NCBI RefSeq assembly: GCF_003076755.1
Contig: NZ_QDKM01000004.1
Coordinates: 62,001 to 126,000 of the forward strand
DNA length: 64,000 bases
Direction: 5' to 3'
Source: Pararhodobacter oceanensis
GTDB taxonomy: Bacteria > Pseudomonadota > Alphaproteobacteria > Rhodobacterales > Rhodobacteraceae
Below the pieces are notes generated by a model. The model ran no database searches and was not told the DNA's origin. It saw only the letters and a program-made list of their open reading frames with translations. The position numbers were made by a program, and so were the translations under genes. Below are positions 2,407-62,221 of this stretch, in pieces (position 1 is the stretch's first letter; each line of letters starts with the position of its first letter).

Positions 2407-2959
2407 GGGCGCGGCGGAGGGTCAACCGAGGACCGAGGGACCGCGGGTGTTTCTCGACACCTGCGTGTTATTCCCGCCGATCCTGCGTGATTTCCTGCTG
2501 GGATTGGCGGATGCGGGGCTGTTTATGCCGCTCTGGTCGCAGAGCGTGCTGGCCGAATGGTTGCATGTGACCGCGCGCAAGGGCGAGGCGGGCGCGCCCG
2601 AGGCGATCGCCAGAATAACCGCGCGATGGCCCGAGGCGATGGCCCCCGACGGTGCGCCCGAGCTCCTGGACTTGCCCGACGCGGGTGACACCCATGTTTT
2701 GGCCGCCGCGATTGCGGGGCAGGCGGATATTCTGCTGACCCTCAACCTGCGCGACTTCCCGAAATGGGCCACGGCGCCACAGGGCATCCATGCACAAGCG
2801 CCCGATCCCTTTGTCATGGATCTGTGGTTGCAGGACGCGATACGCGTCGAAGGGCAGGTGGTGCGGGTCTGGCCCGCACTCGAGGGCCGCCCGCTGCGCA
2901 ATGCGCTCAAACGCGCGCGTCTGCCGCGGCTGGGCAAGGCGCTGGAACAGGGCGGCTGA
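2399..2959 (+). CDS. PIN-domain protein (RSP_2648-type), putative ribonuclease
   Basis: A 186-aa PIN-fold protein. Acidic active-site residues are visible as FLDTCVL (D20), LAEW (E53), DAGDTHVLAAAI (D97) and LNLRDF (D119), the usual Mg2+-binding set of VapC-like RNases. There is no antitoxin-like gene next to it; instead it overlaps the end of an rRNA methyltransferase gene by 8 bases. That context argues against a VapBC toxin and for a housekeeping RNA role, which is inference. The C-terminal ~55 residues, basic near the end (ALKRARLPRLGKALEQ), extend past the PIN core. Confidence 0.8.
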   Translation: MAEGAAEGQPRTEGPRVFLDTCVLFPPILRDFLLGLADAGLFMPLWSQSVLAEWLHVTARKGEAGAPEAIARITARWPEAMAPDGAPELLDLPDAGDTHVLAAAIAGQADILLTLNLRDFPKWATAPQGIHAQAPDPFVMDLWLQDAIRVEGQVVRVWPALEGRPLRNALKRARLPRLGKALEQGG

Positions 2960-3334
2960 GCCTCGTGAGCGCGAATGTCAGGCGGAAAACGAGCAAAACC
3001 GATCCGCAACGGACCGGCCTTGACCTCGCTCCAGCCCTCGGCACAAACGCCAAGCCCGGAGGAAAATGCTCGACAAGCCCGTGTGGTGCGCTTTGATCAG
3101 CTATGTAACCCCCCGGCCAAATCTCGGGTCTCAACAGGACCGTCGACAGGGCCGCAGCTTGCTGGCGACACCACACGTCTTGCCGAAAACAGCGAACTAG
3201 AAAGTGTAGGTCAGTAGATACCTGACCCTACGCAAGGATTCGTTTGGCGGCTTCACCCATATGGGTTAAACTCTGGACGGAAGGCACGAAAAGACGTATC
3301 TAAAATAGTTCTTTTCCGGGGACAGCTGGCCAGA
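2960..3334. other. Intergenic region, 375 bp, no gene seen
   Basis: No reading frame here has an RBS or family resemblance. The right half is less GC-rich (TAAAATAGTTCTTTTC near 3300-3316), as expected for a promoter of the LuxR-type gene at 3335. A perfect 12-bp palindrome lies at 3255-3266. Confidence 0.6.
3255..3266. promoter_or_regulatory. Perfect 12-bp palindrome, possible operator
   Basis: ACCCATATGGGT is a perfect dyad 69 bases upstream of the LuxR-fusion start codon. Two-fold symmetric sites in this position commonly bind dimeric LuxR-type regulators; autoregulation is an inference. Confidence 0.35.
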
Positions 3335-5305
3335 ATGGGCAACCGCGACGACAGCACCGAGCCACCACAGCCGGCCTCTGGCGCGGTGTCTTCAAGAATG
3401 CCGGATGTCGTGCATGATGCGCCACCTGAAGTGCGGACTGAGACGCGGCGCAGCCATGGCGCCGATGCGCTGGCTGCAGATCACGAGGAAAGCGCCGAGG
3501 TTGATGGTGAGGCTGGCGGGCTTGATCCCGACCGCGCGCGTCTGATCGGCAGCATCTATGAAGTGGTGCTGCACCCCGAGCATTTCGATGATTTCATCCT
3601 TGATTGGGCCGGCTATATCGAACAGGCGGCGCGGCGGCTGGATGCCCTGCAGCTTGCCGATGGCCAAAGCGCGCATCTGCTTGATGACCCCACCGTGGTG
3701 GCGCATTTCCAGCGCGCGTTCTCGCTGTTCGAGCGGATGGGGCGCGGGGATGAACCGCCGATCCTGCACAGCGGCGCCGATCTGCCGCTCATGCGGCTTG
3801 AGCGGGGCGGCGCGGTCTCGCAAATCACCCCGCGGGCGAAACTGCTGTTCGGGCGCGCGCCCGATCTTGCGGCGATCTGCGAGGCGCTGGAATATGACAG
3901 CGCCCAGCGGCTGCACGGGTTTCTGTCCAGTTTCGAGCGCGCGCCAGCCTCGGGCCGTTTTGCCGTCCTGTCGCTGGCCAAAGCTCCTGATCCCGGCACC
4001 GCGGCCCCCGATAACGCGGGTAACTCCATCGGCGATACCCCCGCCAGTGATACCCTTCCCGGCGGCGGCCTCCTCGGGGTGATCACCCGCCGCAACCCCG
4101 ATGGCGACGGGTTTATCGTCGAACTTCTCTCGCTCTCGATCCATTGGAGCCCGGCGCTGGCGCAGATCCTCGCTGATGCCTTCCATCTGACTCCGCGCGA
4201 GATTGAACTCCTGCGCGAACTCACCATGGGCGGCGATCTTCCGGCGATTGCGCAGCGTATGGAGCGCTCGCTCAACACCCTGCGCGCGCAACTCAAATCG
4301 ATCTTTGCCAAGACCCGCACCAATGCGCAGGCCGAGCTGATGCGGCTGGTCTCGGTCTTGGTGATGCACGGGCCGAACGCGCAGACCCCCGCCGAACCTT
4401 TGGCGCAAAGCGGGCGCGAGCTGCGCGTTGATCTGGGTGACGGGCGCTTCATGCCGGTGCATGTCGCGGGGCCCGAGGACGGGCTGCCGGTGGTCTTTAT
4501 CCACGGGATGCTCGAAGGGCTGGGCATCCTGCGCCATATCGAGCCTTATCTCATCGCCGCCGGCCTGCGGCTGATCGCACCGGTGCGCAGCAACTTCGGG
4601 CAGGCGATGGCCGATCCGCGTATCCGCGAGGCACCGGCGCAATTCGCCAAAGACCTCTGCGCGGTGCTACGCGCGCTGGAGGTGCCGCGCTGCGTGATCT
4701 GCGGACATATGGCGGGCGGGCTTTATGCCTATGCGGCGGCAGGGCGGCTGCGCGAGGTGGTCGCGGGGATCGTCAATGTCGCGGGCTGCGTGCCGATCAA
4801 ATCCATCGAGCAATTCGCCGCGATGACCCCGCGCCAGCGCGCCATCGCCTATACCGCGCGCTTTGCACCGGCGCTTTTGCCCGCGGTGCTGCGCGCCGGC
4901 ATCGCGCGGATCGACAGCCGCGATGTCAAAGCCTTTATGGAGCCGCTTTATCCCGCAGGCTATGCCGACCGCAAAACCATCGGCAACCCGCGCACCGCCG
5001 CGGCGATGATCGACGGCTACCGCTTTACCGTGGCGCAGGGGCCGACCGCCTTCCAGATCGACGCTTGGCATGTGACCCGCGACTGGTCGGCTTTGGTGGC
5101 GCAAAGCGACTGCCCTCTGCTGTTGATCCATGGCACCCGCGATCCGGCGGTCAGTTTCGACAGTGTCGCCGCTTTCGCCGCCGCCACGCCGCGTGCCAAT
5201 CTGCAAGAGAAAACCGGCGACGGGCAATTGTTGTTCTATAGCCAGCCCGCAGCGGTGGTCAGCGCCATTGCCCGTTTCGCACGACACTGCCTTGAGCCGG
5301 GCTAG
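3335..5305 (+). CDS. LuxR-type HTH regulator fused to a catalytically dead alpha/beta-hydrolase domain
   Basis: A 656-aa fusion. Residues 1-65 are low-complexity and acidic. Residues ~68-280 form an N-terminal sensory region that I do not recognise firmly, possibly PAS-like. Residues ~284-340 (LTPREIELLRELTMGGDLPA, then NTLRAQLKSIFAKT) are a LuxR/GerE DNA-binding helix-turn-helix. Residues ~360-650 have the alpha/beta-hydrolase fold: HG oxyanion region (VVFIHGMLEG, 387-395), nucleophile elbow and LLLIHGTRDP. The elbow reads GHMAGG, with Met459 where the nucleophilic Ser should be. The expected catalytic His near the end is Gln631 (GDGQLLF); only Asp603 remains. The codons at these sites are unambiguous, so the domain is probably a ligand receptor rather than an enzyme. 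Monocistronic. Confidence 0.85.
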   Translation: MGNRDDSTEPPQPASGAVSSRMPDVVHDAPPEVRTETRRSHGADALAADHEESAEVDGEAGGLDPDRARLIGSIYEVVLHPEHFDDFILDWAGYIEQAARRLDALQLADGQSAHLLDDPTVVAHFQRAFSLFERMGRGDEPPILHSGADLPLMRLERGGAVSQITPRAKLLFGRAPDLAAICEALEYDSAQRLHGFLSSFERAPASGRFAVLSLAKAPDPGTAAPDNAGNSIGDTPASDTLPGGGLLGVITRRNPDGDGFIVELLSLSIHWSPALAQILADAFHLTPREIELLRELTMGGDLPAIAQRMERSLNTLRAQLKSIFAKTRTNAQAELMRLVSVLVMHGPNAQTPAEPLAQSGRELRVDLGDGRFMPVHVAGPEDGLPVVFIHGMLEGLGILRHIEPYLIAAGLRLIAPVRSNFGQAMADPRIREAPAQFAKDLCAVLRALEVPRCVICGHMAGGLYAYAAAGRLREVVAGIVNVAGCVPIKSIEQFAAMTPRQRAIAYTARFAPALLPAVLRAGIARIDSRDVKAFMEPLYPAGYADRKTIGNPRTAAAMIDGYRFTVAQGPTAFQIDAWHVTRDWSALVAQSDCPLLLIHGTRDPAVSFDSVAAFAAATPRANLQEKTGDGQLLFYSQPAAVVSAIARFARHCLEPG

Positions 5306-5528
5306 CCGTGGCAGGGGGCCTGATGGGGCCGGGAATAACAATGCTGTCAGCGGATCGAGGCTTTCCAGTATTGCCCCGCCGCCAGATCCCCCCATATTAC
5401 TACTATGTCTCGAGTAAGCGCCGGTCGGGGGCAGGGATTGCAAAGCAAAAGCCCGCACGCCAACTGGTTAGCTGTTCACAGGTCTTTCCGTTCACCCCGC
5501 CGTTCCTCACAGGTTTTACACCTCGCTT

Positions 5529-6248
5529 ATGACCCATCCCGCGCAATTGATTGTCGGCTCTTATAACGTCCATAAAGGCGTGGGCAGCGATTACCGCCGT
5601 GACCCGCAGCGCACGCTTTCGGTGATCCGCGAGATCGGCGCCGATGTGATCGCCCTGCAAGAGGTTGACCGGCGTTTTGGTGACCGGCGCGGGGTGCTGG
5701 ACCTTGAGGCGCTGCACCGCGAAACCGGCCTCTCGCCGATCCCGTTGACCGACCGTCTCGGCGATCTCTCGCACGGCTGGCATGGCAATCTGATCCTGTT
5801 CAAAGGCGTCGAGCTTGAGGATGCCCGCGTCATCGCCCTGCCGGGGCTGGAGCCGCGCGGCGCGATTGTCGCCGATCTGCGCGTCGCCGGTCAGCCACTG
5901 CGGGTGATCGCCGCGCATCTCGGGTTGCTGAAAGGCTCGCGACTGGTGCAGGCGCGGCGCTTGGTGGACGAGATCGACACCGGCCGACCGACCTTGATGA
6001 TGGGCGACCTCAATGAATGGCGGCGCGGGCCGGGATGCTCGCTGGCGCCCTTGAAAACCGGCCTCAACGATGCGCAGAATGGCCAGACAGTGGCCAGCTT
6101 TCCCGCCCAGCGTCCGGTTCTGGCGCTTGACCGGATCATCGGTTGCAACCGCGCCGAAGTCCGCGACCTGTGCCCCCATGACACGCCTTTGGCGCGGCTG
6201 GCCTCGGATCACCTGCCGATCCGCGCGCGCCTGCAGTTATCCGCATGA
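5529..6248 (+). CDS. Endonuclease/exonuclease/phosphatase (EEP) family protein
   Basis: A 239-aa single-domain EEP protein, Mg2+-dependent phosphoesterase fold. Active-site residues are in place: N13 (SYNVHKG), E45 (ALQEVDRR), H130 (AAHLG), D160 and N162 (MGDLNEW), D227/H228 (SDHLPI). No signal peptide. The stop overlaps the next gene's start (ATGA, 6245-6248), so it forms a coupled pair with a phospholipase D-like enzyme. This pairing suggests a role in membrane lipid or phosphodiester metabolism, but the substrate cannot be read from the sequence. Confidence 0.87.
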   Translation: MTHPAQLIVGSYNVHKGVGSDYRRDPQRTLSVIREIGADVIALQEVDRRFGDRRGVLDLEALHRETGLSPIPLTDRLGDLSHGWHGNLILFKGVELEDARVIALPGLEPRGAIVADLRVAGQPLRVIAAHLGLLKGSRLVQARRLVDEIDTGRPTLMMGDLNEWRRGPGCSLAPLKTGLNDAQNGQTVASFPAQRPVLALDRIIGCNRAEVRDLCPHDTPLARLASDHLPIRARLQLSA

Positions 6249-7780
6249 GTAGCTGGCCGATGTGGCCCCTTTGGGTGGTGTTGGCGCTGAGTGTTCTGGC
6301 GCTGGCGGGCTATGCCACGCTCTGGTCCGCCGGTCGCTTTGCCAAACGCAAGCGCGGCCCGCTCTCCACCGCCTTGCCGCGCGGTGAGGATGCGGCGCTT
6401 GACCGGCTCCTTGCCCCACTGGAGGCGCGCCACGCAGGGCAAACCGGCATCGCGATGATCGAAAGCCCGCTCGAGGCGTTGAAAACCCGACTGGCGATGA
6501 CCCAGATGGCCGAACGCAGCCTCGATCTGCTGTATTACATGTGGGAGGATGACCTCTCGGGCCGGTTTCTGGCGCAGGCGATCCTTGAGGCGGCGGACCG
6601 CGGTGTGCGGGTGCGGTTGCTGCTTGATGACGTGCAGTTTCTCAACAAAGACCCCGTTTACCGCGCGCTTGACCGGCATATGCATATCGAGGTGCGGATC
6701 TTCAATCCGATCCGCAACCGCGACCGTGGGCTGCGGCGCGGGCTCGAGATGATCTTTACCCTTTTGCCCTATAACCGGCGCATGCACGGCAAGATGTGGG
6801 CCGCCGATGCGCGGCTCGCGGTGACCGGCGGGCGCAATATCGGGGATGAGTATTTTGACCTACTCACCGATCCCGGGCTGAACTACGAGGATCTCGATAC
6901 GCTGCTGGCAGGCGAGGTGATGCAGGACGCGCAGGCGCTGTTTGACCAGTTCTGGAACTCCGGCCTCGCGCTGCCGATCCGCACGCTTTGGCCGGGCAAA
7001 CGCTCGCGCTTACAGCGGTTTCGCTCGCGGTTGACGCAATATCTGGCCAAGCCGAAAACCCGCGCGCGGCTACACCGGTTGCAACTTCACAAGCCCGAGG
7101 AGGCTGCCGATGTGCTGCCGCTCGCAAAGCTGCGCTGGTCCGCGGATGTGCAGTTCCTCGGGGATCCGCCGGAAAAGGCGATTGGCGAGCGGTTGGACGA
7201 CTGGATGCCGGAACTCCTGACGCCGCTGCTGCGCGACGCGCAACACTCGGTGCGGCTGATGACCCCCTATTTCGTGCCCGGCGCGCAGGGGCTCGAGGCG
7301 CTGATTTCCATGGCCCGCAGGGGGCTCGAAGTCGAGGTGATCACCAATGGGCTCGCGGTCTCGGACAATGTTTTGGTGCATGGCGCCTACCGCTGGTATC
7401 GGCAGCGGCTACTGGCTGCGGGCGTGCGGATTTTTGAGGTCTCGGCGCAAGAGAAACCCATCCGCACCCTGCATTCCAAAGCGATGCTGGTTGACGGAGC
7501 TCACGGGTTTGTCGGCTCGTTCAACTTCGATTTGCGCTCGGCTTTCATGAACACCGAAATGGGCGTGGTCTTCACCGATCCCGCGTTGATCGGTGATCTG
7601 ACGCGGATTTTCGATGGCTGCCGCGCTCCGCACCGCGCCTATGCGCTGGCGCAAAGCGGGCGGCGCGCGGTCTGGTCGCGCGGCACCGCGCCGGGCACCA
7701 CCACCGAGCCGCAAAGTAACCGCTTTGAGCGTTCAGTGTCCTTTGTCATCGGCCTGCTGCCGATCCACCGGTTTCTCTAG
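6245..7780 (+). CDS. Phospholipase D-like protein, cardiolipin-synthase type
   Basis: A 511-aa inner-membrane protein with one N-terminal membrane segment (about residues 6-28) followed by a basic stretch RFAKRKRG. Two HxK(x)4D-type PLD motifs are present: HGKMWAAD at H181/K183 and HSKAMLVD at H410/K412, each followed by the GG(R)N or GSFNFD strand seen in Cls enzymes. Such enzymes transfer phosphatidyl groups to make cardiolipin or hydrolyse phospholipid. Length and single N-terminal anchor fit ClsB/C-like or PLDc_N-type proteins; true cardiolipin synthase activity is not certain. Co-translated with the EEP gene. Confidence 0.85.
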   Translation: MSSWPMWPLWVVLALSVLALAGYATLWSAGRFAKRKRGPLSTALPRGEDAALDRLLAPLEARHAGQTGIAMIESPLEALKTRLAMTQMAERSLDLLYYMWEDDLSGRFLAQAILEAADRGVRVRLLLDDVQFLNKDPVYRALDRHMHIEVRIFNPIRNRDRGLRRGLEMIFTLLPYNRRMHGKMWAADARLAVTGGRNIGDEYFDLLTDPGLNYEDLDTLLAGEVMQDAQALFDQFWNSGLALPIRTLWPGKRSRLQRFRSRLTQYLAKPKTRARLHRLQLHKPEEAADVLPLAKLRWSADVQFLGDPPEKAIGERLDDWMPELLTPLLRDAQHSVRLMTPYFVPGAQGLEALISMARRGLEVEVITNGLAVSDNVLVHGAYRWYRQRLLAAGVRIFEVSAQEKPIRTLHSKAMLVDGAHGFVGSFNFDLRSAFMNTEMGVVFTDPALIGDLTRIFDGCRAPHRAYALAQSGRRAVWSRGTAPGTTTEPQSNRFERSVSFVIGLLPIHRFL

Positions 7781-61625: not shown

Positions 61626-62221
61626 CTTGATCTCCCCTCGGTCGATGGCCGGATTTCGCCACCGTCGTTTCAAAACTCAGAAAAGTGAGGAGCCCCGAGA
61701 GGATTGCAGCGCAACGCGCTTAAACCGCCCGGGGAGACGTCCGGGTCAGAAGTGGTAACCCCATATATTTAAAACAGCACCGCATAGATATTAGCTAGGG
61801 TCGCGATCTGCTTTCGTCAACTGGCAGCTTGGGAAATTGGCCGGAACCCGCCGAATAACCGGCGAAATGGCCAAAAGGTCGCACCACGCGCGGATCACTT
61901 GAAACACAATGCCGTGAGCCCCATATCGAATGTATGATGACATTGCCCGTTCACAAGAGGTTCCTGCGCTGTGCCGGAAATCTGCTGAACCGCCGGTAAC
62001 CCCGAGCGGGCTCTGCGCCATTGCGCCTGCACGTCTCGGGGGTCATCCGCCTTGGGGGCTTACCCCCTCAGGCATCGGCTCGGGATCATAGAACCCGCGC
62101 CACCCGTTTACCAGTCTCGCAGACCGCCCAGCGGTCATGTTGATCCTCTGGCGCGTTGTCAGGGGGGCCGTTGTGACGGCGGTCTGCGCTATCGCTCTGC
62201 ATGTCTATGGAGGGTTCCCCA
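61626..62221. other. Intergenic region of 596 bp, possible non-coding RNA locus
   Basis: No protein gene is supported. There is an AT-rich stretch (CCCCATATATTTAAAACAGC at 61761-61780), a CCCCGAG/CTCGGGG inverted repeat at 62000-62041, a GGGGGCTTACCCCC hairpin at 62054-62067 and CCCATAT at two places. The RBS GGAGGG of the DUF1127 gene is at its right end. A small RNA could be encoded but nothing proves it. Confidence 0.45.

Follow-up and report, generated by a model that had tools for sequence, protein, structure and literature searches.

A LuxR-type regulator fused to an alpha/beta-hydrolase domain without its catalytic triad, and a conserved palindrome ahead of its gene, in Pararhodobacter oceanensis

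The window analyzed here is a 64,000-nucleotide stretch of the Pararhodobacter oceanensis genome (contig NZ_QDKM01000004.1, forward strand, positions 62,001 to 126,000). Its gene at 3335-5305 encodes a protein of 656 residues in which a PAS-like region, a LuxR-type helix-turn-helix (HTH) and an alpha/beta-hydrolase-fold domain follow one another on a single chain. Judged from sequence, the hydrolase-fold domain has lost two residues of its catalytic triad, the loss is conserved among close relatives, and a dyad conserved in orthologs lies ahead of the gene. The reading we favor, and consider probable, is that of a one-component transcription factor that controls its own gene, with a hydrolase-fold domain that descends from an active ancestor and acts as a receptor.

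The lost triad and the domain architecture

In alignment A1, which holds the window protein and nine relatives (two of them near-copies of each other), the positions of the nucleophile, the acid and the catalytic His are occupied by Met459, Asp603 and Gln631, and all three are invariant across the ten rows. The nucleophile-acid-His triad of serine and aspartate hydrolases is absent from the window protein and from 9/9 relatives. The nucleophile elbow, residues 451-467, reads PRCVICGHMAGGLYAYA and holds no Ser within 8 residues of position 459, which leaves no shifted elbow Ser. Asp603 lies in the context HGTRDPAVSF and Gln631 in GDGQLLFYSQP. The residues H390-G391-M392, G457-H458-M459-A460-G461, P604 and G630-Q631-L632 are likewise invariant in A1. 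As a control, 11 stand-alone alpha/beta-hydrolases were taken from the loci of a 60-genome search, outside the fusion carriers. All 11 keep [S/D]-[D/N]-H at the aligned columns, and the triad columns are therefore correctly placed. Gln631 may hold a His-type hydrogen bond to Asp603, preserving the shape of the pocket without supplying a base.

Pfam places residues 386-643 in Abhydrolase_6 (E 9.4e-10, above the cut-off), and thus in the hydrolase-fold superfamily. The GerE HTH was matched at residues 285-338 (E 7.5e-4); of 16 family members, nine match it with an E value no higher than 0.01. An input domain and an HTH on one chain is the architecture of a one-component transcription factor. Autoind_bind, the domain of LuxR proteins that respond to acyl-homoserine lactones (AHL), did not appear among the Pfam matches listed with E values of 1 or less. 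None of the 22 listed NCBIfam families of named hydrolase equivalogs (BchO, PcaD, haloalkane dehalogenase and others) reached its cut-off, the best being BchO with 38.3 against 172.55 bits. The nearest solved structure by sequence is the alpha/beta-hydrolase 9wlv (phmmer E 8e-16). It is again the top match of the full-protein model, with a Foldseek E of 2.2e-15, a template modeling (TM) score of 0.82 by target and 26% identity. The hydrolase core of that model lies largely above a predicted local distance difference test (pLDDT) score of 90, with a poor loop at 419-427. The initial annotation had described exactly this open reading frame as a LuxR HTH-hydrolase fusion that lost Ser and His, retained Asp603 and kept the fold, and it is upheld on each of these points.

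The N-terminal half was modeled separately (residues 57-350, 38 sequences, mean pLDDT 83.5). The model has a helical lead, the strand-helix-strand order of a PAS domain and then the HTH. Against the PDB it matched EL222, a LOV receptor and VqmA best. Foldseek gave these matches probabilities of 0.95-1, but they are weak: E values run from 1.2e-3 to 1.3e-2, and TM-scores taken over the full chain are about 0.2-0.3. Pfam detected PAS_4 in 1 of 16 family members. A PAS-like domain ahead of the HTH is likely on the model; the initial annotation had not named it. The start codon may be any of several in-frame candidates, namely ATG at 3335 or 3398, or GTG at other positions.

The palindrome ahead of the gene

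Alignment of the upstream regions of orthologs revealed GCTTCACCCAT..GGGTTAA, and this conserved palindrome, which the initial annotation had not noted, is the strongest evidence on function and now lends support to the one-component regulator suggested there. In the 64-kb window the palindrome pattern has one match at up to two mismatches, where 0.10 is expected. Forty upstream regions were compared. The palindrome was carried by all seven Pararhodobacter-type loci, with 12-14 of 16 consensus letters (strict ACCCN4GGGT in six), and by 7/7 sampled loci of a second subclade, as TGACCCAWWTGGGTCA, with 14-16 of 16 letters. The remaining 26 of the 40 regions gave no clear copy. Across the 14 sites T, ACCCA, GG and the final A are invariant.

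A matrix built from the 14 sites was run on the 124 of 129 family members that have enough upstream sequence; 15 of these are training loci or a near-copy, and 109 were held out. Six held-out members outscored the highest of 2480 shuffled sequences (19.7), namely L103 (35.1), L089 (31.2), L100 (30.6), L137 (29.2), L091 (23.4) and L156 (20.7), the next being L148 with 18.5. L103, L089, L100 and L091 belong to the second subclade, and L137 and L156 are distant from it; L156 has an S-D-H triad and comes from outside the taxonomic family of the window. Twenty of 22 further loci (see below) could be scanned. L250 (31.1), L257 (31.1) and L253 (22.4) lay far above all 300 of their own shuffles, six others reached p 0.01 or less, and 11 did not. 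All three of these high scorers belong to a family of another class; their triad columns read S-D-N in L250, S-D-S in L253 and S-D-N in L257. A variant dyad of the form CATNACCANNTYTGGNTAT stands near the start in L111, L114 and L115 (D-D-H or D-N-H), in L147 and in Ruegeria TM1040; the matrix scores of L111, L114, L115 and L147 are 9.9-13.4, below the shuffle maximum.

In an unbiased count of all 6-base dyads, 15 of 33 upstream regions of the Met/Leu type held TNACCC-N4-GGGTNA with no more than two mismatches, against at most 4 in shuffles at that spacing (three shuffles) and 6 at any spacing. At the same tolerance TTSACC-N6-GGTYAA occurs in 16/36 Met/Leu-type regions (0.65 expected) and in 7/33 of other types (0.38 expected). 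For the Gly/Ala type, the unbiased count over 47 loci yielded no operator dyad clearly above shuffles (best 11/47 against 9; three shuffles per spacing). With two mismatches allowed, TTGACC-N4-GGTCAA, a form chosen after two of those loci had shown it, precedes 7 of 55 Gly/Ala-type genes, where 0.33 is expected and none of 40 shuffles gave more than 2. It lies 24-43 bases 5' of the start of homology in L046, L049 and L055 and, with two mismatches, in L047, L054, L057 and L059. This dyad of Gly-type members has the same half-site with a spacing two shorter.

Genome-wide, CACCCATNNGGGTTA without mismatch has a single copy in the 4.08-Mb window genome, the one ahead of the fusion gene. At up to two mismatches it has 46 matches against 36 for the reversed control; a wider regulon drawn from these other sites was rejected, as the matches hardly outnumber those of the control. 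The pattern TSACCCANNYGGGYYA, built from the sites described here, was matched in 14/14 carrier genomes (46 matches in total against 9 in the control), and in 12 of the 14 it stands directly ahead of the fusion gene. In fourteen genomes without a fusion relative the pattern was matched 10 times, in 6 of the genomes, and the reversed control twice. A single sequence, TCACCCAGATGGGCCA, accounts for five of these 10; it is seen again in several Rhodobacteraceae-type genomes, whether or not they carry the fusion gene. In 14 genomes of the far family, with a pattern built from some of those genomes' own sites, 9 matches were found in 6 genomes; five lie ahead of fusion genes, and three of the other four are in one genome. 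The core NCCCANNTGGGN was uninformative, with 28-105 forward matches in each of 9 genomes and an excess over the reversed control in 5 of 9.

Three other sites that were inspected sit within long coding-looking frames, which we take to be 5'-nucleotidase-like in L214 and L218 and MurE-like in L201. Further sites are three in genome G827 (L270-L272) and one inside a frame in G943 (L264); those of L270-L272 lie near what are presumably a glycine-zipper-like protein, a short protein and a transporter of the major facilitator superfamily type. In L270 (1501-1516, 825-1268 and 1846-2982) there is a second fusion-type gene that has the Ser and His motifs; after it comes a palindrome copy, about 230 bases 5' of the small glycine-zipper-like protein, a possible target gene. 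The coordinates of the features in the window are collected in Table 1.

Table 1. Coordinates of the fusion gene, its domains and the upstream palindrome in the window.
Feature	Position	Strand	Basis
Candidate operator CTTCACCCATATGGGTTAAA	3251..3270	+	conserved dyad ahead of orthologs; starts 84 bases 5' of the ATG
12-base palindrome ACCCATATGGGT	3255-3266	+	within the candidate operator
PAS-like / LuxR HTH / pseudo alpha/beta-hydrolase regulator (predicted), 656 aa	3335..5305	+	open reading frame, Pfam, alignment
Residues 1-62, unconserved	3335..3520	+	pLDDT <50 nearly throughout; absent from orthologs
Residues 65-150, helical N-terminal region	3527..3784	+	structure models
Residues 151-270, PAS-like domain	3785..4144	+	model; weak Foldseek matches
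Residues 275-343, LuxR/GerE HTH	4157..4363	+	Pfam GerE; helices in model
Residues 363-650, alpha/beta-hydrolase-fold domain	4421..5284	+	Pfam, phmmer, Foldseek
Met459, nucleophile position	4709..4711	+	alignment
Residues 489-585, cap region with the lowest pN/pS in the protein	4799..5089	+	pN/pS by region
Asp603, retained acid	5141..5143	+	alignment
Gln631, catalytic His position	5225..5227	+	alignment

The family, its triad states and its surroundings

The first search covered 60 genomes, that of the window included, and 40 of them gave some match, mostly weak or to a single domain. Orthologs with 59-63% identity over almost the full length occur in 6/17 genomes of the same genus, and two more have relatives at 39-40%. 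Searches with profile A2 at a threshold of E 1e-30 or better found matches in 98/394 genomes drawn from the family, in 13/385 drawn from the class (three of the 13 being the own genome or its family) and in 37/398 drawn from the phylum (nine from the own genome or family, eight from the same class and 20 from outside the class). After removal of 14 duplicates and one partial sequence, 129 distinct proteins were aligned. Public annotation calls members of the family either 'alpha/beta fold hydrolase' or 'LuxR C-terminal-related transcriptional regulator'.

The nucleophile column of the 129 proteins holds Gly in 50, Met in 25, Leu in 12, Ser in 11, Asp in 8, Arg in 7, Ala in 6 and others in 10. 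The acid column is Asp in 113, and the His column is Gln in 88 and His in 13. The exact M-D-Q set of the window protein is found in 24, and a usable nucleophile-His pair is missing in 116. The initial annotation held that homologs with an intact triad would tell against its reading. None is present among the close relatives; distant members do have one, with a plausible triad in 9/129 (six S-D-H, two D-D-H and one D-N-H; four further proteins are D-S-H). Twenty-two further proteins came from 20 far places picked from the phylum search and two plasmid-borne relatives. S-D-H was found in 4 of the 20 far places; the triad columns read D-D-H in the protein of Ruegeria sp. TM1040 and G-D-Q in that of Aliiroseovarius. 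The far relatives L244-L263, many from one family of another class, have mixed triads (S-D-H, S-D-F, S-D-N, G-D-H, C-D-H and others), and several carry the same palindrome upstream. The Ruegeria gene (L238:4524-6161, megaplasmid, WP_011536845.1) has the motifs GYDAG, GAD and AGH and a CATGACCAGTTTTGGTTATA dyad directly ahead of it, and its annotation is just 'alpha/beta fold hydrolase'.

What does the scatter of intact triads say about ancestry? Because the intact members sit on separate branches and in other families, with none among the close relatives, the simpler reading of the sequences is that the triad-bearing distant members are traces of an active ancestor. The deep order is poorly supported in a quick tree made from the hydrolase domain after removal of the three triad columns (140 rows; 44 of 137 inner branches starred), and over all rows of this tree the dead or alive state needs at least five changes.

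Constraint was compared between regions by pN/pS, the ratio of nonsynonymous to synonymous differences, over eight rows made up of the window protein and seven orthologs, of which two are near-copies. Because synonymous differences are close to saturation, the values have meaning only relative to one another. The cap has the lowest (0.26), followed by the HTH (0.31), the N-terminal helices (0.35), the two core parts (0.42 and 0.44), the PAS-like part (0.49) and the linker (0.58). Amino-acid identity is 0.80 in both the cap and the HTH, and 62 of 97 cap columns are invariant in the eight rows. Set beside the HTH (0.31) and the linker (0.58), the cap (0.26) and the core (0.42 and 0.44) show that the hydrolase domain is still constrained and not decaying.

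Downstream of the gene the order EEP-PLD-Aat-AccC-AccB-XRE is kept in 6/6 other Pararhodobacter-type loci. At 5529-7780 of the window an Exo_endo_phos gene overlaps a PLD-like gene, and the pair lies downstream of the fusion in 6/6 other such loci. Neighbor genes outside the Pararhodobacter type were called crudely, as the longest open reading frames, with one representative of each named by Pfam. Eleven Gly-type loci of different genera (L168-L178) have a RecN-type gene nearby in 10/11, an FtsZ-type gene in 7/11 and an LpxC-type gene in 6/11, and hold a stable chromosomal place; three loci of another clade have a LipB-type gene in common. The gene neighborhood was rejected as a clue to the ligand, for the sampled loci of other clades sit elsewhere; the neighbors name no pathway because fusion loci of different clades have different surroundings. 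A role in bacterial defense was also rejected, as a CARF-HTH model was matched by the HTH part only. Phage records gave no match, and 10 plasmid records gave partial matches, none covering 80%. A scan of 2950-5600 for Sigma-70-type promoters found none, with 0.5 expected.

Interpretation and comparison with known systems

We propose that the LuxR-type HTH would bind, as a dimer, the palindrome ahead of its own gene and so regulate that gene, whichever direction the control may take. The C-terminal domain would no longer be capable of ordinary hydrolase chemistry and would serve as a ligand-binding receptor. A small molecule would be held at the site of the former triad under the constrained cap, which would close over the pocket, and its binding would alter the state of the dimer and hence the binding of DNA. 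The initial annotation proposed an ester or lactone, and from the fold alone the ligand might be of that kind. The PAS-like domain may be a second input or a dimer interface. The pseudo-hydrolase would descend from an active hydrolase, because distant members retain Ser/Asp-Asp-His. A wider proposal, which we hold more tentatively and rate as somewhat short of an even prospect, is that of a family of PAS-HTH-alpha/beta-hydrolase receptor pseudo-hydrolases that spans two or more classes of the phylum and has many members with a shared CATNACC-N6-GGTNATG operator ahead of their own genes. In such a family the step from enzyme to dead receptor would have been repeated, most commonly by a change of His to Gln.

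Several results weigh against self-regulation through this palindrome by a sensor of this architecture. The loci sampled between the two subclades are without a clear site, the best being L165 with 13 of 16 letters. Of the 109 held-out members 103 do not exceed the shuffles, among them 6 of the 17 scanned rows of the second subclade (L090, L122, L128, L131, L132 and L135). Most members of the largest clade are without the site, and TTSACC-N6-GGTYAA is found in 2/55 Gly/Ala-type loci, with 0.57 expected. In the window protein the GerE match of 19.5 bits is under the curated Pfam cut-off of 23.5, and no PAS fold match reached an E of 0.001 or better. The hydrolase-fold domain could be a protein-interaction or dimer domain, and the palindrome could belong to another regulator.

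The first of these alternatives, which we regard as unlikely and still as the strongest competitor, takes the pseudo-hydrolase domain for a structural or protein-interaction module, for dimerization or the binding of a partner, and leaves the PAS-like domain as the sole sensor. The cap, with the lowest pN/pS, is a possible interface, the nucleophile position is highly variable (G, M, L, S, D, R, A), and the folds of VqmA and EL222 are among the best matches of the N-terminal half. In VqmA and EL222 the PAS-HTH unit alone is a complete regulator. Against such a module, the pocket landmarks HGM, GHMAG, DP and GQL are invariant in close relatives, and the Gln631 that recurs in 88/129 members is not obviously needed by a mere scaffold.

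That another, perhaps global, regulator owns the palindrome and the fusion protein controls other genes appears rather improbable. The matches of TSACCCANNYGGGYYA in 6 of 14 non-carrier genomes (10 against 2) are in its favor, and the 46 matches against 9 in carriers imply further sites there too. However, half of the non-carrier matches are the one recurrent sequence TCACCCAGATGGGCCA, the mismatch-free form is unique in the window genome, and the motif precedes the fusion gene in distant genomes. There is little chance that the domain is still an enzyme with a different chemistry through other residues, such as His458, His579 or Asp603. His390, His458 and Asp603 are invariant in A1 and His579 is nearly so, and some distant members retain a full triad; but the elbow is without a nucleophile and the usual His position without a His, and to our knowledge enzymes of the alpha/beta-hydrolase fold need at least the His. 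A decaying gene or an annotation accident, to which the unconserved 62 N-terminal residues might point, can practically be dismissed, given an open frame at the same place in 6/6 other Pararhodobacter-type loci, purifying selection on all folded domains and a conserved palindrome.

A search of open-access titles, part of it run with a spelling that probably missed 'alpha/beta', found none describing such a family; among those titles the one-component regulator with a pseudo-hydrolase input predicted here appears to be without earlier description. Within the family, WP_260519347.1 (Aliiroseovarius sp. M344) is G-D-Q and has no such dyad upstream, and WP_011536845.1 has the variant dyad and, with D-D-H, might be active as far as its sequence goes. 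Some 'alpha/beta fold hydrolase' annotations in these genomes are probably regulators. The closest structure, 9wlv (Microlunatus), is stand-alone and is named as an esterase.

The top fold matches of the N-terminal half of the window protein, weak as they are, include VqmA and EL222, PAS/LOV-LuxR HTH regulators. Those two are without a hydrolase domain and have the HTH at the end of the chain, whereas the HTH of the window protein is in mid-chain. The LuxR-type HTH is common to the AHL-responsive regulators TraR and SdiA, which have a dyad operator; in the window protein Autoind_bind is missing from the Pfam list. D14/KAI2 and RsbQ are alpha/beta-hydrolases that serve in signaling. Their triad is intact, and they are separate proteins that do not bind DNA. 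GID1 acts through a separate protein partner. Two of three residues lost, as the initial annotation put it for GID1, needs correction: GID1 belongs to the Ser-bearing GDSSG group, with only the His replaced, by Val or Ile (PMC4728528, PMC11294565). The likeness is that of an alpha/beta-hydrolase relative turned receptor after losing the catalytic His, and the difference is that the window protein has Met for Ser, Gln for His and a domain fused to an HTH.

The best-known cases of enzymes turned receptors come from plant hormones. With its dead and apparently living members, its sensor and DNA-binding part on one chain and its candidate operator, a bacterial family of this kind would allow the step from enzyme to receptor to be tested directly in laboratory strains, and it could reveal a new class of small-molecule signal in Rhodobacteraceae. 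If the proposal is true, bacteria would have a counterpart to the hormone receptors that plants derived from this fold, and its living enzyme-like members could be compared with the dead ones.

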